Origin: Egicoccus sp. AB-alg6-2
GTDB lineage: Bacteria > Actinomycetota > Nitriliruptoria > Nitriliruptorales > Nitriliruptoraceae
Assembly: GCF_041821025.1 (NCBI RefSeq)
Contig: NZ_JBGUAY010000002.1
Location: 434,001-498,000, forward strand
DNA: 64,000 nt
Direction: 5' to 3'
Below the pieces are notes generated by a model. It searched no databases, had not been told where the DNA came from, and worked only from the letters and a program-made list of their open reading frames with translations. The position numbers and the translations under genes are program-made. This document shows, one piece after another, positions 27,145-35,347 of this stretch. How positions within the stretch are numbered: position 1 is the first letter of the stretch; each line of letters opens with the position of its first letter.

Positions 27145-30123
27145 CTAGGAGGCGCAGCGCACGCGTCGTTGCAGGGTACGCGATGCCAGCGCCTCGACGA
27201 GCGGCACCACCTCCTGCATCGGCCGGCTGTCCTCGTCGCCGTAGCACTCGAGCAGCCAGCGGGTGCCGTCCGGCATGGTCTCGGTCAGGCCGACGACGTA
27301 GCGGAAGCCGTCGGCCTCGAGGACGGCGACCTCCTGGGGGTCGGCCGCCGGGTCGTCGCTGCTGACCGCGAAGCCCTGTCCGTCCACGAACGCGGCGGCC
27401 GTGATCGGGAAGTCGTCGATGGTGTACTGCTCGTCGGGCTCGGGCGGGGCCAGCGGCGCCCGCGGACGCCGGCGGCGGAGGTGGGTGTCGTGGATCGTCA
27501 GGACCGAGGAGTCGGGCTGGGCGACACTGAGCGTCCAGCGGTTGAGATCGAACAGGTTGAGTGCCACCTCGCCGACGAGCTGCAGGCCGGGCACCGCCGG
27601 GCCGCGTTCGGCGAGCGCCCGGCTCCAGCGCCCCAGGGAAGCGTCGACCGAGCGGCCGGGCCGCTCGCTTCGCACACGCTGGTCCGGTGTCGGGTCGTCG
27701 TGGAGCAGCCTGGACGGGATCGGGCGGTCGTCGGCGCCGTCGTCGAACACGACGGCGACCCCCGACGCCTTGGCGCGGTACTGCGCGGCATCGGCGCGCG
27801 CCAGCAGGTCCGTGAACGAGTGGTCGTCCGATCGCGCGGCCGCCACGCCGACCGACACCTGCGGCTGCCGGGTGGGGGCGGCGCGCAGGAGCTCGAAGAA
27901 GCGCTCGACCATCCGTAGCGCGTCGTCCGCGTCGCCAGCGAGGACGACGCAGAACTCGTCGCCGCCCAGCCGCGCCGCCAGCGCCTCGGACTGCGTCACC
28001 GCCACGCGGTTGAGCGCGTCGGCGACCGTGATCAGCAGCTCGTCACCGGCGGCGTGGCCGTAGACGTCGTTGATCTCCTTGAGGCCGTTGACGTCGAGCA
28101 TGACCGCGGTGACGTGGCCGGTGTCGCTGCGGGCCAGCTGCGATGCGGCGAAGTCCTCGAGGCGCCGGCGGTTGGCCAGACGCGTCAGCGGGTCCTCGCC
28201 CGCCAGCCGAGACAGGTTGCCGAGGTGCTCGGCGCGGGCGATCGCGAAGCCGATGAAGCCCGCGACGGCACTGACGTAGGGGATGTCGGCCGAGGTGAAG
28301 GGCGGGGAGCTCTCCGCCGTCGTGGCGTACAACTCGCCCCAGACGGTGCCCTCCACCACGATCGGCACGCCGGCGGCCGAACCCTTGCGCAGCCGCCGCA
28401 GGATGTCGCGCTCGCCGGGTTCGGTGGTGGGGTCGTCGACGGCGGTGAGCAGTACCCGTCGTTCGAGCACGAGCCGGGACGAGGCCGGCAGCTCCTTGAG
28501 CGAGTAGTGCTCGGCCGTCGGCCGGCGTTCCTCGTCGGGGCCGAGCCAGCCGACGTTGACGACGGTGCGCAGTTCCGCCGCCTCGCGGTCCCAGCGGGAG
28601 ATCGACAGCGACGCCGCCCCCATCGCGCCCAGGGCAGCGTCGGCCGCGATCTCGAGCACGTCCGCCAACTCGCCGTCGGAGCCGATGGCGCGGGCGACAC
28701 CGACGAGTCCGCGCAGCCGTTCGGCCGCGTCGTCGCGGCCACGGACCCGTTGTTCGAACTCCCGGACGACGGGGAGCGGCGGCGGGGAGGTCGCCGGCTC
28801 GTGCCACCAGGCATCGAGGCGCTCCAGCAGGTGCCCGCGGAGCGCGACGTCGTCGAGCACGTCGTCGAGCGCGTCCTCGAGCGGGCGCCCGACGCGGCGT
28901 GCGACCGCGAGGCGGGCCACGGCGGCGGCGACCGCGCCGGGATGGACGTCGACGGCCAACCGCGGCGCCTGCGACAGGGCTTCCTCGAGCTCCCGCCAGG
29001 CGGGTACCGCGTGCATCGTGCGCAGCACCTGGAGCAGGTCACCGGTGCCGACCAGCGCCGCGAGCAGGCCGATGACGTCGACGCGCGCGCGCGTCAGCGA
29101 CAGCGCGAACCCGACGATCCGGGCGGCCTCGACCGCGTCGGCCCGCAGAGACCCCGGGCGGGGGTCGCCCGCCACCACGGCCACCGCGATGATCGCGGCC
29201 AGGTCGAGTGCCTGGGCCCCGATCAGGCTGGCCGCCGGCTCGACGGCGGACTCCTGGTGTCCGGCCACGTAGTCGCGCAGCTCGGCGTCGCCGCTCGCCG
29301 GGGCGTAGAGGTGGCCCTGACCCAGTTCGCAGCCCCACTCCCGAAGCAGCACGACCTGTTCGCGGTGCTCGATGCCCTCGGCCACGACGTCCAGGCCGAG
29401 GGAGGTGCCGAGGCCGATCGCCGCCTGCACCACCAGCGCCCGCCCGCGGGCCGGTCCGCTGGTGGTGCCCACGGCCGCGACGAACGAGCGGTCCAGCTTG
29501 AGCATCGTGAACGGAGCCGAGGCGAGCAGGTCCAGGGTCGCGAACCCGGTGCCGAAGTCGTCCAGCGCGATCCCCACGCCGAGGTCGGCCAGCGCGTGCA
29601 GTTGCGAGCCGTCGCTCAAGTGGTCGAACGCCGCCGTCTCCGTGACCTCGACGACCAGGCAGCCGGCGGGGAGCGCCGTCGCGGCCAGCGTGCGTCGCAC
29701 CAGCTCGACGAACGCGCGGGAGCCGAGTTGGAGCGGCGAGACGTTGACGTGCAGCCGCAACGCGGCCAGTTCGGGTTGCCGCCGCCAGGCGGCGAGCTGC
29801 GCGCAGGCGCGCACGAGCACGTCGGTGCCCAGGGCCTGGATCAGCCCGGACCGCTCCGCGACGCGCACGATGCCGCTGGCGGCGGCCAGCGGCGGGTCGA
29901 GCGGGCCGGACAGTCGCACCAGCGCCTCGACCGCCACGGCGCGCCCGCAGGACAGATCGACGACGGGCTGGTAGACGACCTGCAGCCGGCCCTCGTCGAT
30001 CGCGTCCGCGAGCAGCAGCGCCTCCGGGTCGGCGTGGGTGCCGTGGTCACGGCGCCAGTCGCGGGTGGCGAACGGCACGGCGGAGCGCAGCTCGCGCGGG
30101 ACCGGCGCCTCGCGCCGGTCCAT
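27145..30123 (-). CDS. c-di-GMP signalling protein: EAL, HD-like helical region, GAF, GGDEF, C-terminal GAF-like
   Basis: 992 aa, no obvious membrane helix. EAL phosphodiesterase domain at about 45-285: EALVRL (66-71), NVSPLQL, VTETAAF, LDDFGTGF (187-194), KLDRSF and VAEGIE. A helical segment at about 305-440 resembles a degenerate HD-GYP domain without HD residues. GAF-like domain at about 465-630. GGDEF cyclase domain at about 640-770 with intact GGDEF (720-724). A further GAF-like domain at about 800-992. The start ATG 30123 was chosen because the longer frame to 30342 crosses the kaiC promoter region. The EAL-before-GGDEF order is reversed from the common one. Divergent from kaiC. Confidence 0.9.
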   Translation of the reverse strand: MDRREAPVPRELRSAVPFATRDWRRDHGTHADPEALLLADAIDEGRLQVVYQPVVDLSCGRAVAVEALVRLSGPLDPPLAAASGIVRVAERSGLIQALGTDVLVRACAQLAAWRRQPELAALRLHVNVSPLQLGSRAFVELVRRTLAATALPAGCLVVEVTETAAFDHLSDGSQLHALADLGVGIALDDFGTGFATLDLLASAPFTMLKLDRSFVAAVGTTSGPARGRALVVQAAIGLGTSLGLDVVAEGIEHREQVVLLREWGCELGQGHLYAPASGDAELRDYVAGHQESAVEPAASLIGAQALDLAAIIAVAVVAGDPRPGSLRADAVEAARIVGFALSLTRARVDVIGLLAALVGTGDLLQVLRTMHAVPAWRELEEALSQAPRLAVDVHPGAVAAAVARLAVARRVGRPLEDALDDVLDDVALRGHLLERLDAWWHEPATSPPPLPVVREFEQRVRGRDDAAERLRGLVGVARAIGSDGELADVLEIAADAALGAMGAASLSISRWDREAAELRTVVNVGWLGPDEERRPTAEHYSLKELPASSRLVLERRVLLTAVDDPTTEPGERDILRRLRKGSAAGVPIVVEGTVWGELYATTAESSPPFTSADIPYVSAVAGFIGFAIARAEHLGNLSRLAGEDPLTRLANRRRLEDFAASQLARSDTGHVTAVMLDVNGLKEINDVYGHAAGDELLITVADALNRVAVTQSEALAARLGGDEFCVVLAGDADDALRMVERFFELLRAAPTRQPQVSVGVAAARSDDHSFTDLLARADAAQYRAKASGVAVVFDDGADDRPIPSRLLHDDPTPDQRVRSERPGRSVDASLGRWSRALAERGPAVPGLQLVGEVALNLFDLNRWTLSVAQPDSSVLTIHDTHLRRRRPRAPLAPPEPDEQYTIDDFPITAAAFVDGQGFAVSSDDPAADPQEVAVLEADGFRYVVGLTETMPDGTRWLLECYGDEDSRPMQEVVPLVEALASRTLQRRVRCAS

Positions 30124-30335
30124 CGTCGTTTCGCTTCTCACGCCATCGCACCTCGGGGCACTCGCGCTCCCGTCGGCCGGAGCGGGCGCGGGTCGAGTGG
30201 TTGCGCGCGCAGGTACGGACGGACACCTCGGTGGCCCGATCCGGGCGCACCGCTGTCCGTCTAGGCTGTCGGGCGGCGACCGGAGCCGCATGCGAGAGCC
30301 GCCCGGGCTGACGCGGTCACCTCGATGGGTGTGCC

Positions 30336-31838
30336 ATGTCAATCACCCCGGTCCGCAAGGTTCCCACGGGGATCCCGGGCTTCGACGCGATGGCCCACGG
30401 TGGCCTGCCGGAGGGCCGGACGACGCTCGTCGCCGGGTCGGCCGGCTCGGCGAAGACGTTGTTCGCGTCCCAGTACCTGGCGGGCGGCATCACCGAGTTC
30501 GACCAGTCCGGTGTCTTCGTCACCTTCGAGGAGACGCCGCTCGACCTGCGCCGCAACCTGATCTCGCTCGGCTGGGACGTCGAAGCGTGGGAGCAGGCGG
30601 GCAAGTGGCGGTTCGTGGACGCCTCGCCCGATCCCGAGCACGAGCTCACGTTGGCCGGGTCGTGGGACTTCGGGGCGTTGATGGCCAGGATCACCCGCGC
30701 CGTGGAAGCCGTCGGCGCCACCCGTGTCGTGGTGGACTCCCTCGGCGCGGTCTTCAGCGAGTTCTCCGACGGCGGTCGCGTGCGCCGCGAACTGCGGCGC
30801 CTCGTCCGCGCCCTGCGCGACCTCGACGTCACCTCGGTCATGACGGTCGAGCGCACGACCGAGTATGGCGACGTCAGCCGTTGGGGGGTCGAGGAGTTCG
30901 TCGCCGAGGACGTCGTACTGCTGCGCAACATCCTCGAGGACGAGGCCGCGCGCCGGACCATGCAGATCCTGAAGTTCCGCGGCACGACCCACCGCAAGGG
31001 CGAGTTCCCGTTCGCGATCATCAACGACCGTGGCATCGTGGCGCTCCCGCTGGCCGACTCGGCGCTGACGAGCCTGCGGTCGCGGGCCGACCGGATCGAC
31101 TCCGGCAACGACGTCCTCGACGACATGTGTGGCGGCGGTCCGTTCCGTGACTCCATCAGCCTGGTGTCGGGCGCGACGGGTACGGGCAAGACGCTGACGG
31201 TCACGGAGTTCATGAAGGGCGGGGCTCGAAACGGCGAGCGCTGCCTGCTGTTCGCGTTCGAGGAGAGCCGGGCCCAGCTGATCCGCAACGCCCGCGGTTG
31301 GGGGGTCGACTACGAGCAGATGGAGCGCGACGGGCTGCTGAGGATCGTCGCCGCCTATCCCGAGACCGCCTCGCTCGAGGAGCACCTGGTCGCCGTCACC
31401 GACGCGGTGCGCGACTTCGACCCGCAGCGGTTCGCGCTGGACTCGCTGTCGGCGCTCGAGCGGGCATCGACCCCGCGGGGGTTCCGCCATTTCGTGATCG
31501 GCATCACCTCGATGCTCAAGGAACGCCAGGTCACCGGGCTGTACACGGCGACCACGCCCAGTCTCACCGGGGGCGCGTCGGTCACGGAGTCGCACATCTC
31601 GACCCTGACCGACGCCATCATCCTGCTGCGCTACGTCGAGATCCACGGGGAGGTGAAACGCGCCATCTCGGTGCTCAAGATGCGGGGGTCCGCGCACGAC
31701 CGCGACATCCGCGAGATCACCATCGACGGCACCGGCATGCACATCGGTGAGGCGTTGCGCAACATCTCGGGCGTGCTCGCCGGTGCGCCACGTCAGCTCG
31801 GCCCCGACGAGGTCGAGGTCATCGGCACGAGTGCCTGA
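30336..31838 (+). CDS. kaiC: KaiC-family circadian clock/RecA-like ATPase with two domains
   Basis: 500 aa, tandem KaiC domains as in the cyanobacterial clock protein. CI: Walker A GSAGSAKT (34-41), catalytic Glu pair 65-66 (FEET). CII: Walker A GATGTGKT (279-286), Glu pair 309-310 (FEES). The autophosphorylation site is conserved: ESHIST with Ser422-Thr423, corresponding to Ser431-Thr432 of Synechococcus KaiC, plus Thr417 (Thr426). KMRGSAHD follows as in the family. The length is slightly below the 519 of Synechococcus. kaiB follows 50 bp downstream, and a kinase/receiver pair converges on it. No kaiA is present in the window. Oscillator function is not proven; a timer or stress role is possible. 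Confidence 0.93.
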   Translation: MSITPVRKVPTGIPGFDAMAHGGLPEGRTTLVAGSAGSAKTLFASQYLAGGITEFDQSGVFVTFEETPLDLRRNLISLGWDVEAWEQAGKWRFVDASPDPEHELTLAGSWDFGALMARITRAVEAVGATRVVVDSLGAVFSEFSDGGRVRRELRRLVRALRDLDVTSVMTVERTTEYGDVSRWGVEEFVAEDVVLLRNILEDEAARRTMQILKFRGTTHRKGEFPFAIINDRGIVALPLADSALTSLRSRADRIDSGNDVLDDMCGGGPFRDSISLVSGATGTGKTLTVTEFMKGGARNGERCLLFAFEESRAQLIRNARGWGVDYEQMERDGLLRIVAAYPETASLEEHLVAVTDAVRDFDPQRFALDSLSALERASTPRGFRHFVIGITSMLKERQVTGLYTATTPSLTGGASVTESHISTLTDAIILLRYVEIHGEVKRAISVLKMRGSAHDRDIREITIDGTGMHIGEALRNISGVLAGAPRQLGPDEVEVIGTSA

Positions 31839-31888
31839 GCCACCACGGGTACCGAGTCACTGGATATCACGACGGACGGGAGGTGAGG

Positions 31889-32215
31889 GTGGACCGACCG
31901 GATCAGCTCCGACTCCAGCTGCGGTTGTACGTCCACGGCGACGCCCCCGAGACCGCGGCCGTGGAGCGCAACCTGCACGAGGTGTTCGCCTCGATCGGCC
32001 TGGACTACGACGTCGAGATCCTCGACGTGCGTGCGCACGCCGACGAGGCCGAGGCGGACAAGATTCTGCTGACCCCGACCCTGATCCGGTTGACACCCCC
32101 GCAGCTGCGTGTGGCCGGTGACCTGGCCGACGTCGAAACCGCGCTCGACGGGCTCGGCTTGCGCATCTGGTCCCAGCGGGCACGCGCACGACCGATGGCC
32201 GACAACGAGGGCTGA
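31889..32215 (+). CDS. kaiB: KaiB-family protein
   Basis: 108 aa thioredoxin-like KaiB fold. The family pattern is clear: LRLYVHGDAPE near the N-terminus, ERNLHEVF, VEILDVRAHADEAEADKIL, TPTLIRLTPPQLR and AGDLADVETALDGLGL. GTG 31889 was chosen because GGAGG ends 5 nt before it; GTG 31883 would overlap that site. It is downstream of kaiC in the same direction. In cyanobacteria KaiB binds phosphorylated KaiC and redirects the output kinases; the same role with the neighbouring kinase is inferred. Its end is 8 bp from the convergent receiver gene. Confidence 0.9.
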   Translation: MDRPDQLRLQLRLYVHGDAPETAAVERNLHEVFASIGLDYDVEILDVRAHADEAEADKILLTPTLIRLTPPQLRVAGDLADVETALDGLGLRIWSQRARARPMADNEG

Positions 32216-32223
32216 CGGCCCGC

Positions 32224-32616
32224 TCAGGCGCGGCGGCTGGCCACGGCCTGGGCGATCGCGTCGTACAGGTCGGTGTCGGTGTAGGGCTTGGGCAGGAACG
32301 CGGTGTGCGCCGTGGGGTCGACCAGGTGTTCGGCGACCTCGCTCTGGTCGAAGCCACTGAAGAACACGATCGGCAGCCGGGGCGCGGCCGCCCGCATGCG
32401 CGGGAACGCCTCGTGTCCGGTCATCACGGGCATCATCACGTCGAGGAGCACGACGTCGAGGGCGTCCGCCTGCTCGGTGACGCGTTCCACCGCCTCGCGT
32501 CCGTTGGTGGCCTGCACCACCTCGTAGCCGGCCTTGCGGAGTAGGAGGGCGGTGACCTGGCGCACCATGGCGTCGTCGTCGACGACGAGAACCGTCCCCT
32601 CCGTCGCGGTCGTCAT
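32224..32616 (-). CDS. Stand-alone response regulator receiver protein
   Basis: 130 aa CheY-like receiver without output domain. Acidic pocket Asp13-15 (VVDDD), phospho-acceptor Asp59 (LLDVMMP) and conserved Lys110 (FLPKPY). Its ATG overlaps the stop of the histidine kinase gene (ATGA), so the two are translationally coupled and form a cognate pair. It converges with kaiB with an 8-bp gap. Such single-domain regulators act through protein contacts or phosphorelay. Confidence 0.93.
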   Translation of the reverse strand: MTTATEGTVLVVDDDAMVRQVTALLLRKAGYEVVQATNGREAVERVTEQADALDVVLLDVMMPVMTGHEAFPRMRAAAPRLPIVFFSGFDQSEVAEHLVDPTAHTAFLPKPYTDTDLYDAIAQAVASRRA

Positions 32617-34175
32617 CCGGTGGCCTGGCCGGGGAAGGGCAACAGGAGCCGGAAGCGGGCGCCCTGGCCCGGGGCGCTGTCGACGTCGATGGCGCCGCCG
32701 TGCGCCGCGACGATGCCGGCACTGGCGGCGAGACCGAGGCCGCGTCCGGCGAACTTGGTGCTGAAGAACGGGGCGAACATCCGCTGGCGCACCTCGTCGT
32801 CCATGCCGGGACCGTCGTCGACGACGTCCACGATGACGTAGGAGCCGGGTGGCAGGAGGCGCGTGGGATGGGTGAGCGCGGCGTCGCCGGCCAGGTCGAG
32901 GGTGCCGCTGGTGACCAGAATCTGCCCGCCCTGTTCGCCGATGGCCTCGGAGGCGTTGATGACGAGGTTCATCAGCACCTGGCGTAGCTGGGTCGCGTCG
33001 GCGCGCACCTGGGGCACCTCCGCGTCCAGCGCGACCTCGAGGCGGGTCTTCGGCGGGACGCTCGAGCGGAGCAGCCGGATCATGCCCGTGACGAGGTCGT
33101 TGAGGTCGACGGTCGTCAGCTCGATGCTGCCGCGCCCGCTGTAGGCGAGCATCGAACGGGCCAGCTCGGCAGCCCGGCCGCTCGCCTCGAGGATCTGTTC
33201 GAGCGCGTGGTCGACCATCTGGGGGTCGTCGGTGCTCGCGCGGGCGATGCTGGCCCAGCCCTGGACGCCGACGAGCAGGTTGTTGAAGTCGTGGGCGACC
33301 CCGCCGGCCAACGTGGCCAGGCTCTCGGCCTGCTGCAGGTGGCGCAGGCGCTCCTCGCTCTGCCGTTCCCGGGTGATGTCACGCCCGATGACGACGTGGC
33401 CGACGATCGATCCCTCGCCATCGGTCATCGGGGCCGCCGTGACCGAGAGCAGCAAGGGCGCCTCGGGCGGACGTTCGAGCGCGAGCTCGCGGCGGACCTG
33501 CGATCGCGACGCGTCGGCGGCCGCGAGCATCTCGACCACCTCGGCGGGGTCGGCGGTGGCCAGGACCGCTTCCAGCGGCCGTCCTTCCACGGTCTGCAGG
33601 TTCGTGGTGAGCAGGCGCTCCCCGGACTCGTTGAGGGTGACGATGCGGCCGCCGGCGTCCACGCTCAGGATCAGGTCGGGGGCGTGGTCGATCAGGGCGC
33701 TGAGGTACTGCTCGGACATCGGCGACACGGCCTCCGGAGCCGTCACCGGCGGGGCGTCGAGGACGTCGCGGTTGATGGTGTCCAGCGCCCGGCGCAGCTG
33801 GGCGCGGCGCGAGGCGGACGTGGCCACCGCGTCCAGCGTCATCCGCAGCTGCGCGTCGTCGGTGTCACCCGCGACCACGACGGCGTTGGTGATCTCCGGA
33901 GCGAGCGCCAACCTGGTGCGCGCCACGTCGACCTGGTCCTCGGGCACCAGCAGGGCGAGACCGACGGTGCCGTTCGCACGCCGGATGCGTCGGGCGGCGG
34001 TCAGCGGCTGGGACCAGGACGAACCGATGGCGACCAGCAGGGGGGCCGGCCGGCCGCGCTGGAGCGCCGCCAGGCAGCCGTCGAGGTCGGTCACCGCCTC
34101 GAGCCCGGTGTCGCCGCGGGCGGCCAGCATCGCCAGCGGTCCGGTACCGGAGTCGAGGGCCAGGATGCGCGACAT
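32613..34175 (-). CDS. PAS histidine kinase with N-terminal pseudo-receiver-like region, kai-linked
   Basis: 520 aa cytoplasmic kinase. Residues 1-125 look like a receiver fold without the phospho-acceptor pattern. PAS domain at about 155-270 (LIDHAPDLILSVD, VIGRDITRE). Dimerisation domain with phospho-His295 (GGVAHDFNNLL). ATPase domain with N-box NLVINASEA, G1 DGPGMD and G2 GRGLGLA. The HDFNN motif is typical of hybrid/NtrB-like kinases. Coupled to the receiver gene and next to kaiCB; similar kinase-receiver-kaiBC groupings occur outside cyanobacteria. It could be the clock output or input kinase (inference). Confidence 0.9.
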   Translation of the reverse strand: MSRILALDSGTGPLAMLAARGDTGLEAVTDLDGCLAALQRGRPAPLLVAIGSSWSQPLTAARRIRRANGTVGLALLVPEDQVDVARTRLALAPEITNAVVVAGDTDDAQLRMTLDAVATSASRRAQLRRALDTINRDVLDAPPVTAPEAVSPMSEQYLSALIDHAPDLILSVDAGGRIVTLNESGERLLTTNLQTVEGRPLEAVLATADPAEVVEMLAAADASRSQVRRELALERPPEAPLLLSVTAAPMTDGEGSIVGHVVIGRDITRERQSEERLRHLQQAESLATLAGGVAHDFNNLLVGVQGWASIARASTDDPQMVDHALEQILEASGRAAELARSMLAYSGRGSIELTTVDLNDLVTGMIRLLRSSVPPKTRLEVALDAEVPQVRADATQLRQVLMNLVINASEAIGEQGGQILVTSGTLDLAGDAALTHPTRLLPPGSYVIVDVVDDGPGMDDEVRQRMFAPFFSTKFAGRGLGLAASAGIVAAHGGAIDVDSAPGQGARFRLLLPFPGQATG

Positions 34176-34177
34176 CG

Positions 34178-35347
34178 CTACAGCAGCGGCAGGTCGAGCA
34201 GGGAACGGCCGAGCCAGGTCCGGAGCAGGTCGGTCGAGGGCGACATGACGTGGGCGGCCCTGGCGTCACGCAGCGCACGCGTCAGGCGGCTGTTGCTCTG
34301 GTAGGCGATGCCGCCGGTCAGCGTCAACGCCTCGTTGGCGACGTGCACCGCGGCCTCGGCGACCTCCGCCTTGCAGGCGAACAGCGCCTGCCGCGCGGCC
34401 GGGTCACCCGCGTCGCCGAGCGCGGCGGCGTGGTGGAGCAGTTGGCGGGTGCGTTCGACGGTCGACCACAGCCCGCCGAGGCGGTGGGCGATGATGTCGT
34501 TGGCACCGATCCGCTCGCCGGTGTGCTCGTAGGTCCGCTTGCGCACGTGCTCGATCGTGGCTTCGAGGGCGCTGCGGGCGACCCCGAGGTAGGCGCCGGC
34601 CATCGCCACGATGAAGTACGGCGCGATGACCTCGAACACGTACCAGGTCTCGTCGCCCTCGGCGCCGAGCAGGTTGGCGGCCGGGACCCTCGCCTCGTCG
34701 AGCACGACGCCGCGGGAGCTGTTGCCACGCATCCCGAAACCGTTCCACTCCTGCTGCCAGGTGGCGCCCGGGGCTCCGGCGTCCAGCAGCAGGCACGAGA
34801 ACGTGCCCGGGTCGAGCTCGCTGCCCTCACCGACGACGCTGAGCACGTAGGAGTCCGCGCGCCCGCCGCTGGTCACGAACGACTTGCAGCCGTTGACGCG
34901 GTAGTCGTCCCCGTCCCGCCGGTAGGTGACCTGGGGCAGGTAGAAGTGGACACCCGTCCCGGGTTCGGACAGCGCCAGCGAGGTGACGTGCCGACCGGCG
35001 GCGATGGGCGCGAGATAGCGCTCCTTCTGGGCGTCGGTCGCCTTGACGTCGATGACCTTGGCGGCAACGCAGTGCATGCCGAAGACCAGCCCGGTGGAGC
35101 CGCACTCCCGACCGAGTTCCTCGGTCACGACGGCGAGTGCGAGCAGTCCCTCGTCGTGGCCTCCGACGTCGGTCCCCACGTTGAGCCCGAGCAGTCCCGC
35201 CTCGCCCAGCGCGTGGAGTCCCCGGGCCGGCCACTGCGCCTCGCCGTCGACCTTGTCGGCGTCCTCGGCGAGCACCGTCGACGCAATGCCGCGTGCGGTC
35301 TCGGCGAAGTGCGCCACCCGGGCCGGAGGGCCCGCCGGATCCCGCAC
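34178..35347 (-). CDS. Acyl-CoA dehydrogenase family protein
   Basis: 389 aa FAD-dependent dehydrogenase. N-terminal helical domain, then LALSEPGTGVHF (FAD/substrate signature), NGCKSFVTSGGRADSYVL, WNGFGMRGNSSRGVVLDEARVPAANLLG, and a C-terminal domain ending TLTGGIAYQSNSRLTRALRDARAAHVMSP-like, the usual family ending in shortened form. GAGGAG lies 6-7 nt before the GTG. The catalytic base cannot be assigned. Oxidation of an acyl-CoA or a related flavin reaction is expected. It begins just downstream of the kinase gene on the same strand, with no evident functional tie. Confidence 0.9.
   Translation of the reverse strand: MRDPAGPPARVAHFAETARGIASTVLAEDADKVDGEAQWPARGLHALGEAGLLGLNVGTDVGGHDEGLLALAVVTEELGRECGSTGLVFGMHCVAAKVIDVKATDAQKERYLAPIAAGRHVTSLALSEPGTGVHFYLPQVTYRRDGDDYRVNGCKSFVTSGGRADSYVLSVVGEGSELDPGTFSCLLLDAGAPGATWQQEWNGFGMRGNSSRGVVLDEARVPAANLLGAEGDETWYVFEVIAPYFIVAMAGAYLGVARSALEATIEHVRKRTYEHTGERIGANDIIAHRLGGLWSTVERTRQLLHHAAALGDAGDPAARQALFACKAEVAEAAVHVANEALTLTGGIAYQSNSRLTRALRDARAAHVMSPSTDLLRTWLGRSLLDLPLL

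Follow-up and report, generated by a model that had tools for sequence, protein, structure and literature searches.

A KaiC3-like KaiC–KaiB pair in an actinobacterium, possibly derived by loss of KaiA3 and of the KaiC tail

The 64,000-nucleotide stretch of Egicoccus sp. AB-alg6-2 analyzed here (contig NZ_JBGUAY010000002.1, positions 434,001 to 498,000; the whole stretch is referred to as the window) carries genes for a double-domain KaiC and a divergent KaiB. A preceding sequence-only reading had described a kaiC–kaiB module without kaiA in an actinobacterial-type genome. This description was borne out by the equivalog scores of KaiC, by a PF07689 match of KaiB, and by the lack of any match to KaiA (PF07688) in the organism's own genome. 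The pair comprises the following features, given by window coordinates:

30336..31838, plus strand: kaiC, encoding a KaiC3-like double-domain ATPase/kinase of 500 amino acids (TIGR02655 and NF006799 above cut-off; trees)
31599..31604, plus strand: codons of Ser422-Thr423 within the motif ESHIST, counterparts of Ser431-Thr432 of Synechococcus KaiC according to alignments
31776..31835, plus strand: KaiC residues 481–500, a shortened C-terminus that lacks the tail E..RL..LF seen in KaiA3-linked KaiCs
31878..31883, plus strand: GGGAGG, the likely ribosome-binding site of kaiB
31889..32215, plus strand: kaiB, encoding a divergent KaiB of 108 amino acids from GTG 31889 (open frame from 31883; PF07689, predicted fold)

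KaiC exceeded both NCBIfam equivalog cut-offs (TIGR02655, 580.4 vs. 546.25 bits; NF006799, 653.2 vs. 408 bits), contained two PF06745 stretches in the domain search, and was matched along its entire length by solved KaiC structures in a PDB comparison. The equivalog scores and PDB matches ruled out a RadA/GvpD-type ATPase, and a tree placing the protein with such ATPases did not appear. The phosphorylation site in the CII domain was found intact, as initially claimed. It had also been claimed that both domains keep a Walker A motif and catalytic glutamates; this holds for the glutamate pairs (VTFEET in CI, FAFEES in CII), but the CI Walker A motif reads GSAGSAKT, with Ala instead of the usual Gly before Lys. 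As this Ala is widespread among the fetched KaiC3-like proteins, including cyanobacterial ones, it is not a defect peculiar to this KaiC, and an interpretation as a sign of decay was rejected since most KaiC3-like proteins share it. Typing by alignment and tree, as the sequence-only reading had proposed, places KaiC as KaiC3-like and apart from the KaiC2 type of Rhodobacter: it scored 309 bits against Rhodobacter KaiC vs. ~540–650 bits against KaiC1-like entries, and it is 58% identical to a KaiA3-linked Prochloron KaiC vs. 52% to a KaiA-linked one. The trees contained no Synechocystis KaiC3 sequence, and the split between KaiC1 and KaiC3 is less firm because KaiC1 rows nest within the same larger set as the KaiC3-like rows (tree without the columns of the C-terminal tail). 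Within the genus, the ratio of nonsynonymous to synonymous substitution rates (dN/dS) of kaiC was 0.12–0.19. A scan for sigma-70 promoters and terminators gave no signal above chance.

KaiB proved recognizable and preceded by a ribosome-binding site, as described at first sight, yet it is divergent: it passed PF07689 (48.5 vs. 27 bits) and fell far below the clock-type equivalog cut-offs (TIGR02654, 41.7 vs. 145.3; NF006798, 43.5 vs. 110). GTG 31889 is the more likely start, rather than 31883, because GGGAGG occupies 31878–31883 and the KaiB of a relative (L086) has its initial M at the corresponding position. The predicted fold, modelled with moderate confidence (predicted local distance difference test, pLDDT, 74), was nearest to the KaiC-bound, fold-switched KaiB 5jwr. 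Of the KaiB fold-switch residues Lys57, Gly88, and Asp90 (PMC6989803), the alignment showed that Gly is kept, Lys is kept in the window and replaced by Arg in the four relatives, and Asp90 is replaced by Gly (..DGLGL) in the window, L003, L004, L032, and L086.

In most related loci, kaiB is immediately preceded by a gene whose product combines a receiver or PAS domain with a KaiA-like C-terminus, i.e., KaiA3, an architecture known from Synechocystis (PMC11372060). A profile built from the KaiA-like C-terminus matched 32 of the 40 named loci, from nine phyla including Cyanobacteriota, each time in the gene directly before kaiB, and it also matched the class-mates G023 (two matches) and G025. 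The same profile gave no match anywhere in the window, on which basis a KaiA-like domain in the adjoining kinase or receiver was rejected, none in the whole genome or any other genome of the family, and none in the genomes of L017, L033, and L034 or in G283 and G087. As judged from these searches, the relevant missing partner of the KaiC–KaiB pair is KaiA3. The matches further suggest that KaiA3 systems are far wider spread than the five non-cyanobacterial genera listed before (PMC11372060). The KaiA3-type genes before kaiB (L005–L041, L092, L093, L095) vary at the N-terminus: most have a receiver, those of Chloroploca (L008, L041) carry two PAS-like domains, and those of L020 and L021 carry one; in Planctomycetota (L018, L022), KaiA3 is a stand-alone C-terminal domain. 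Genome G380 carries a KaiA3-type gene (L118:1495-3351) apart from kaiBC and beside a histidine kinase gene, with a tailed KaiC on another contig, and a single contig of the Magnetocorallium genome G077 contains three KaiA3-type matches (L101, L105, L106).

KaiA3-linked KaiCs terminate in a conserved tail, E..RL..LF, which lies in the same region as the C-terminal tail by which cyanobacterial KaiC is bound by KaiA (PMC6378743). The window KaiC ends with GAPRQLGPDEVEVIGTSA and lacks this tail, as do the rest of its clade and L017, L033, L034, L094, L109, and L110. Presence of a KaiA-type gene and of the tail coincided throughout the 46 rows scored: 34 had both, and 12 lacked both. Left out were L108 (incomplete genome) and L116, the tailless second KaiC of G380, whose single KaiA3 lies elsewhere; L107 was scored for KaiA3 by its whole genome, and the other KaiA3-bearing rows by the adjacent gene. 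The tree requires four changes each of tail and KaiA-type gene, three of them forced by well-supported branches. Because tail and KaiA3 presence match, the tail is likely the KaiA3 docking site on KaiC3. Asp90 of KaiB was considered as a second KaiA3-linked trait: by row counts, it was present in 26 and absent from eight KaiA3-bearing rows, and present in none and absent from all ten of the other rows (p = 2e-5). The association failed once relatedness was allowed for, with 1.7 of three pairs in agreement.

In the tree without tail columns, the window clade (five rows, 100/100) joins L092 at 100/98, compared to 99/89 in the tree with tail columns. L092 is a KaiC of G023, a member of the same class that has KaiA3, KaiB, and the tail, and the surroundings of both consist mostly of KaiA3-bearing KaiCs. 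Loss of KaiA3 and of the tail on the window branch appears to be the simplest reading.

The nearest named relatives belong to Nitriliruptoraceae and to one unclassified Actinomycetota genome. KaiC was detected in 11 of 66 genomes of the class (E ≤ 1e-30) and in 15 of 396 genomes sampled from the whole phylum (E ≤ 1e-80), and its distribution is therefore patchy; a plasmid collection yielded three KaiCs only, all distant. The order kaiC-then-kaiB was seen in the genus itself (G000, G041, G042) and in another genus belonging to the same family (G051, G052); kaiB precedes kaiC in the remaining KaiC3-like named loci. KaiB is retained in five of the six genomes with this KaiC, spanning two genera. 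The sixth, G040, is a single-contig genome of the same genus, which keeps kaiC (86% identity) with the EAL–GGDEF gene still divergent from it. At this locus (L085:7245-10533), kaiB and the receiver, kinase, and acyl-CoA dehydrogenase (ACAD) genes are replaced by alcohol-dehydrogenase-like and metallo-hydrolase-like genes, named from their translations, and neither single-sequence nor profile searches found a KaiB elsewhere in G040. Relaxed selection on its KaiC was not observed, with dN/dS of 0.15–0.19 in pairs with G040, similar to 0.12–0.19 in other pairs. In G042, we observed a second, long-branched kaiB–kaiC pair (L094:7162-9158; 48% identity to the window KaiC), which has neither KaiA3 nor the tail. 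The KaiCs of Saccharopolyspora and Sphaerisporangium (L033:5084-6769, L034:7977-9428) have no Ser-Thr pair and FDE for FEE in CII; their loci retain kaiB and lack KaiA3 and the KaiC tail.

The pair is flanked by four genes, all on the opposite strand:

27145..30342, minus strand: EAL-GAF-GGDEF protein, divergent from kaiC (start uncertain, ATG at 30123; next to kaiC in three of four genus members)
32224..32616, minus strand: single-domain response regulator of 130 amino acids with intact phosphorylation site (PF00072; conservation), third gene of an ACAD–kinase–receiver operon and probably outside the Kai module
32613..34175, minus strand: histidine kinase with receiver fold, PAS, HisKA, and HATPase, second gene of the ACAD operon and probably not dedicated to kaiBC
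34178..35347, minus strand: ACAD, first gene of the operon (domain search; same order beside kinase and receiver in L086–L091)

The receiver and kinase genes converge on kaiB, as had been noticed from the sequence, leaving an 8-base gap, and the three operon genes are closely packed (2-base gap, 4-base overlap). The receiver-like nature assigned to the kinase N-terminus was likewise supported, as residues 1–150 were modelled as a receiver fold (pLDDT 88); the end of its third strand carries Gly in the window and L086 and Asp in some relatives. A SasA-like kinase was ruled out since this modelled fold is not the KaiB-like thioredoxin fold, and the receiver carries PF00072 only, without the DNA-binding domain of an RpaA-type regulator. 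Kinase and receiver occur together in seven further loci, with ACAD in front in six; in the seventh, the contig ends. They face kaiB in G000, G041, and G042 and stand without kaiB beside them in G038, G043, G044, G051, and G052. No KaiB was found in the genomes of G038, G043, and G044, two of which are incomplete. In the second genus (L032), the genes downstream of kaiCB encode a ThiF-rhodanese protein, a LuxR-type regulator, and an unrelated GAF kinase. The suggestion that the facing genes form the pair's own output is not supported, given this conservation of the ACAD operon without adjacent kaiB, the unrelated genes beside kaiCB in another genus, and the persistence of kaiC under similar selection in G040, where KaiB, kinase, and receiver are missing; judged by gene order, the kinase–receiver pair is probably an unrelated neighbor tied to the dehydrogenase gene rather than to the Kai genes. 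The adjoining EAL–GGDEF gene can at most be regarded as a weak candidate for an output of KaiC. Several unrelated loci have GGDEF–EAL genes in the vicinity of kaiC (window 27145-30342, L008, L023, L031, L035, L037, L040).

Taken together, we lean slightly toward a KaiC3-like KaiC–KaiB pair which stems from a KaiA3-KaiB3-KaiC3 ancestor, is secondarily devoid of KaiA3 and the tail, and acts as an hourglass or energy-state sensor. By analogy to the KaiBC of Rhodobacter (PMC10076222) and to KaiC3 (PMC6989803), KaiC would autophosphorylate at Ser422/Thr423 without KaiA, to a level set by the ATP/ADP ratio of the cell. KaiB in the thioredoxin-like fold would bind the CI ring, whereby dephosphorylation might be favored or ATPase activity lowered, and the pair would work as an hourglass or energy-state sensor in need of environmental reset rather than as a self-sustained oscillator. 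The sequences show the identity of both proteins, their residues, the lack of a detectable KaiA or KaiA3, the missing tail, and the position beside a KaiA3-bearing relative; autophosphorylation, KaiB binding, timing, and loss instead of primitive absence are inferred. KaiC3 and several non-cyanobacterial KaiCs are known to autophosphorylate without KaiA (PMC5520375, PMC6989803), the KaiBC of Rhodobacter works as an hourglass whose readout is ATP/ADP (PMC10076222), and Prochlorococcus, which lost KaiA, is without free-running rhythm (PMC8874327, PMC11372060). The original alternative of an hourglass or an oscillator can accordingly be narrowed: an hourglass-like timer is a fair assumption, whereas self-sustained, free-running oscillation as in KaiABC is less likely. 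Several points weigh against the derived hourglass or sensor. The tail pattern was defined after the sequences had been viewed, and a paired sign test on three to four independent losses gave p = 0.25 and could not reach 0.05 because there were only three pairs. The root of the tree is uncertain, several branches including L092 are long, and other tailless actinobacterial KaiCs branch deep. Because the KaiA3 profile gives true cyanobacterial KaiA only 12–18 bits, a KaiA-type protein that has diverged strongly might go undetected by this profile and by PF07688 alike. Synechocystis KaiC3, which has KaiA3, was clearly phosphorylated only with KaiA3 (PMC11372060), so that KaiA3 loss could leave KaiC unphosphorylated. 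Finally, the similar dN/dS in G040 implies that KaiC keeps a selected function which needs no KaiB.

The situation in G040 would fit a non-timing ATPase/kinase switch, related to stress, energy, or cyclic di-GMP (c-di-GMP) and with KaiB as an optional modulator: KaiC persists beside the EAL–GGDEF gene after KaiB, receiver, kinase, and ACAD have gone from the locus, and some KaiB–KaiC pairs, e.g., Synechocystis KaiC2–KaiB2, are believed to be clock-independent (PMC11372060). Such a switch is possible but unlikely, as KaiB is kept in all genomes with this KaiC but one and KaiC conserves its phosphorylation pair along with the catalytic Glu pairs of both domains. The unsure root also leaves room for a primitive KaiBC, whose lineage never had KaiA3, the tail having arisen elsewhere together with KaiA3; the deep position of the tailless L109, L033, and L034 (tree without tail columns) and the published view that kaiBC is older than kaiABC (PMC10076222) fit this history. 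However, the sister L092 and the deep class-mates L093 and L095 have both KaiA3 and tail, and repeated joint gains or transfers would be required, which renders it quite improbable. Most doubtful is a full clock module, in which the facing kinase reads the KaiB/KaiC state like SasA or CikA and signals to the receiver. The orientation toward kaiB in three genomes is compatible with it, as is the receiver fold of the kinase N-terminus, given that the KaiA N-terminus is also receiver-like (PMC11372060). The fold differs from that of SasA, the receiver has no DNA-binding domain, the two genes follow ACAD without adjacent kaiB in five genomes, three of these yielded no KaiB, and other genes including ThiF follow kaiCB in L032.

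Returning to a derived KaiC–KaiB pair, it seems slightly more probable than not that KaiA3-driven KaiC3 systems were stripped to KaiA-free forms several times in bacteria, each time with loss of the tail, the Nitriliruptoraceae locus being one case and G040 having proceeded to KaiC alone. If true, KaiA-less KaiBC would often be a derived state and not the ancestral clock. Such systems are usually regarded as remnants of a primordial clock, but the sequences and gene contents compared here speak for a derived, simplified system in at least one lineage, whose nearest relative still has KaiA3. The KaiA3-bearing L092, the KaiA3-less window type, and the KaiB-less G040 form a testable set.

Compared to known systems, the window shares with the Synechocystis-type KaiA3-KaiB3-KaiC3 (PMC11372060) the KaiC group, the Ser-Thr pair, the CI Ala before Lys, and a KaiB partner, and the 58% identical Prochloron copy comes after KaiA3 and KaiB. 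It differs by the absence of a KaiA3 gene, of the KaiC tail, and of the KaiB Asp at position 90, and by the order kaiC–kaiB instead of kaiA3–kaiB–kaiC. The KaiBC hourglass of Rhodobacter sphaeroides (PMC10076222) likewise combines KaiB and KaiC without KaiA, and a readout of ATP/ADP is a likely common feature; its KaiC, however, belongs to the KaiC2 type, carries two serines, and ends in a long coiled coil, whereas the window KaiC has Ser-Thr, 500 amino acids, and a shortened C-terminus. Prochlorococcus KaiBC (PMC8874327, PMC11372060) resembles the proposed history of the window in secondary KaiA loss with KaiB and KaiC kept, but in a streamlined cyanobacterium, as opposed to a KaiC3-like lineage in a 3.7 Mb actinobacterium that would have lost the KaiC tail too. 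With Synechococcus elongatus KaiABC, the window has in common a double-domain KaiC in which the catalytic and phosphorylation residues are conserved (~52% identity to a KaiA-linked cyanobacterial KaiC) and the KaiB fold; unlike that system, it is without KaiA and without a SasA-type or RpaA-type partner at the locus.

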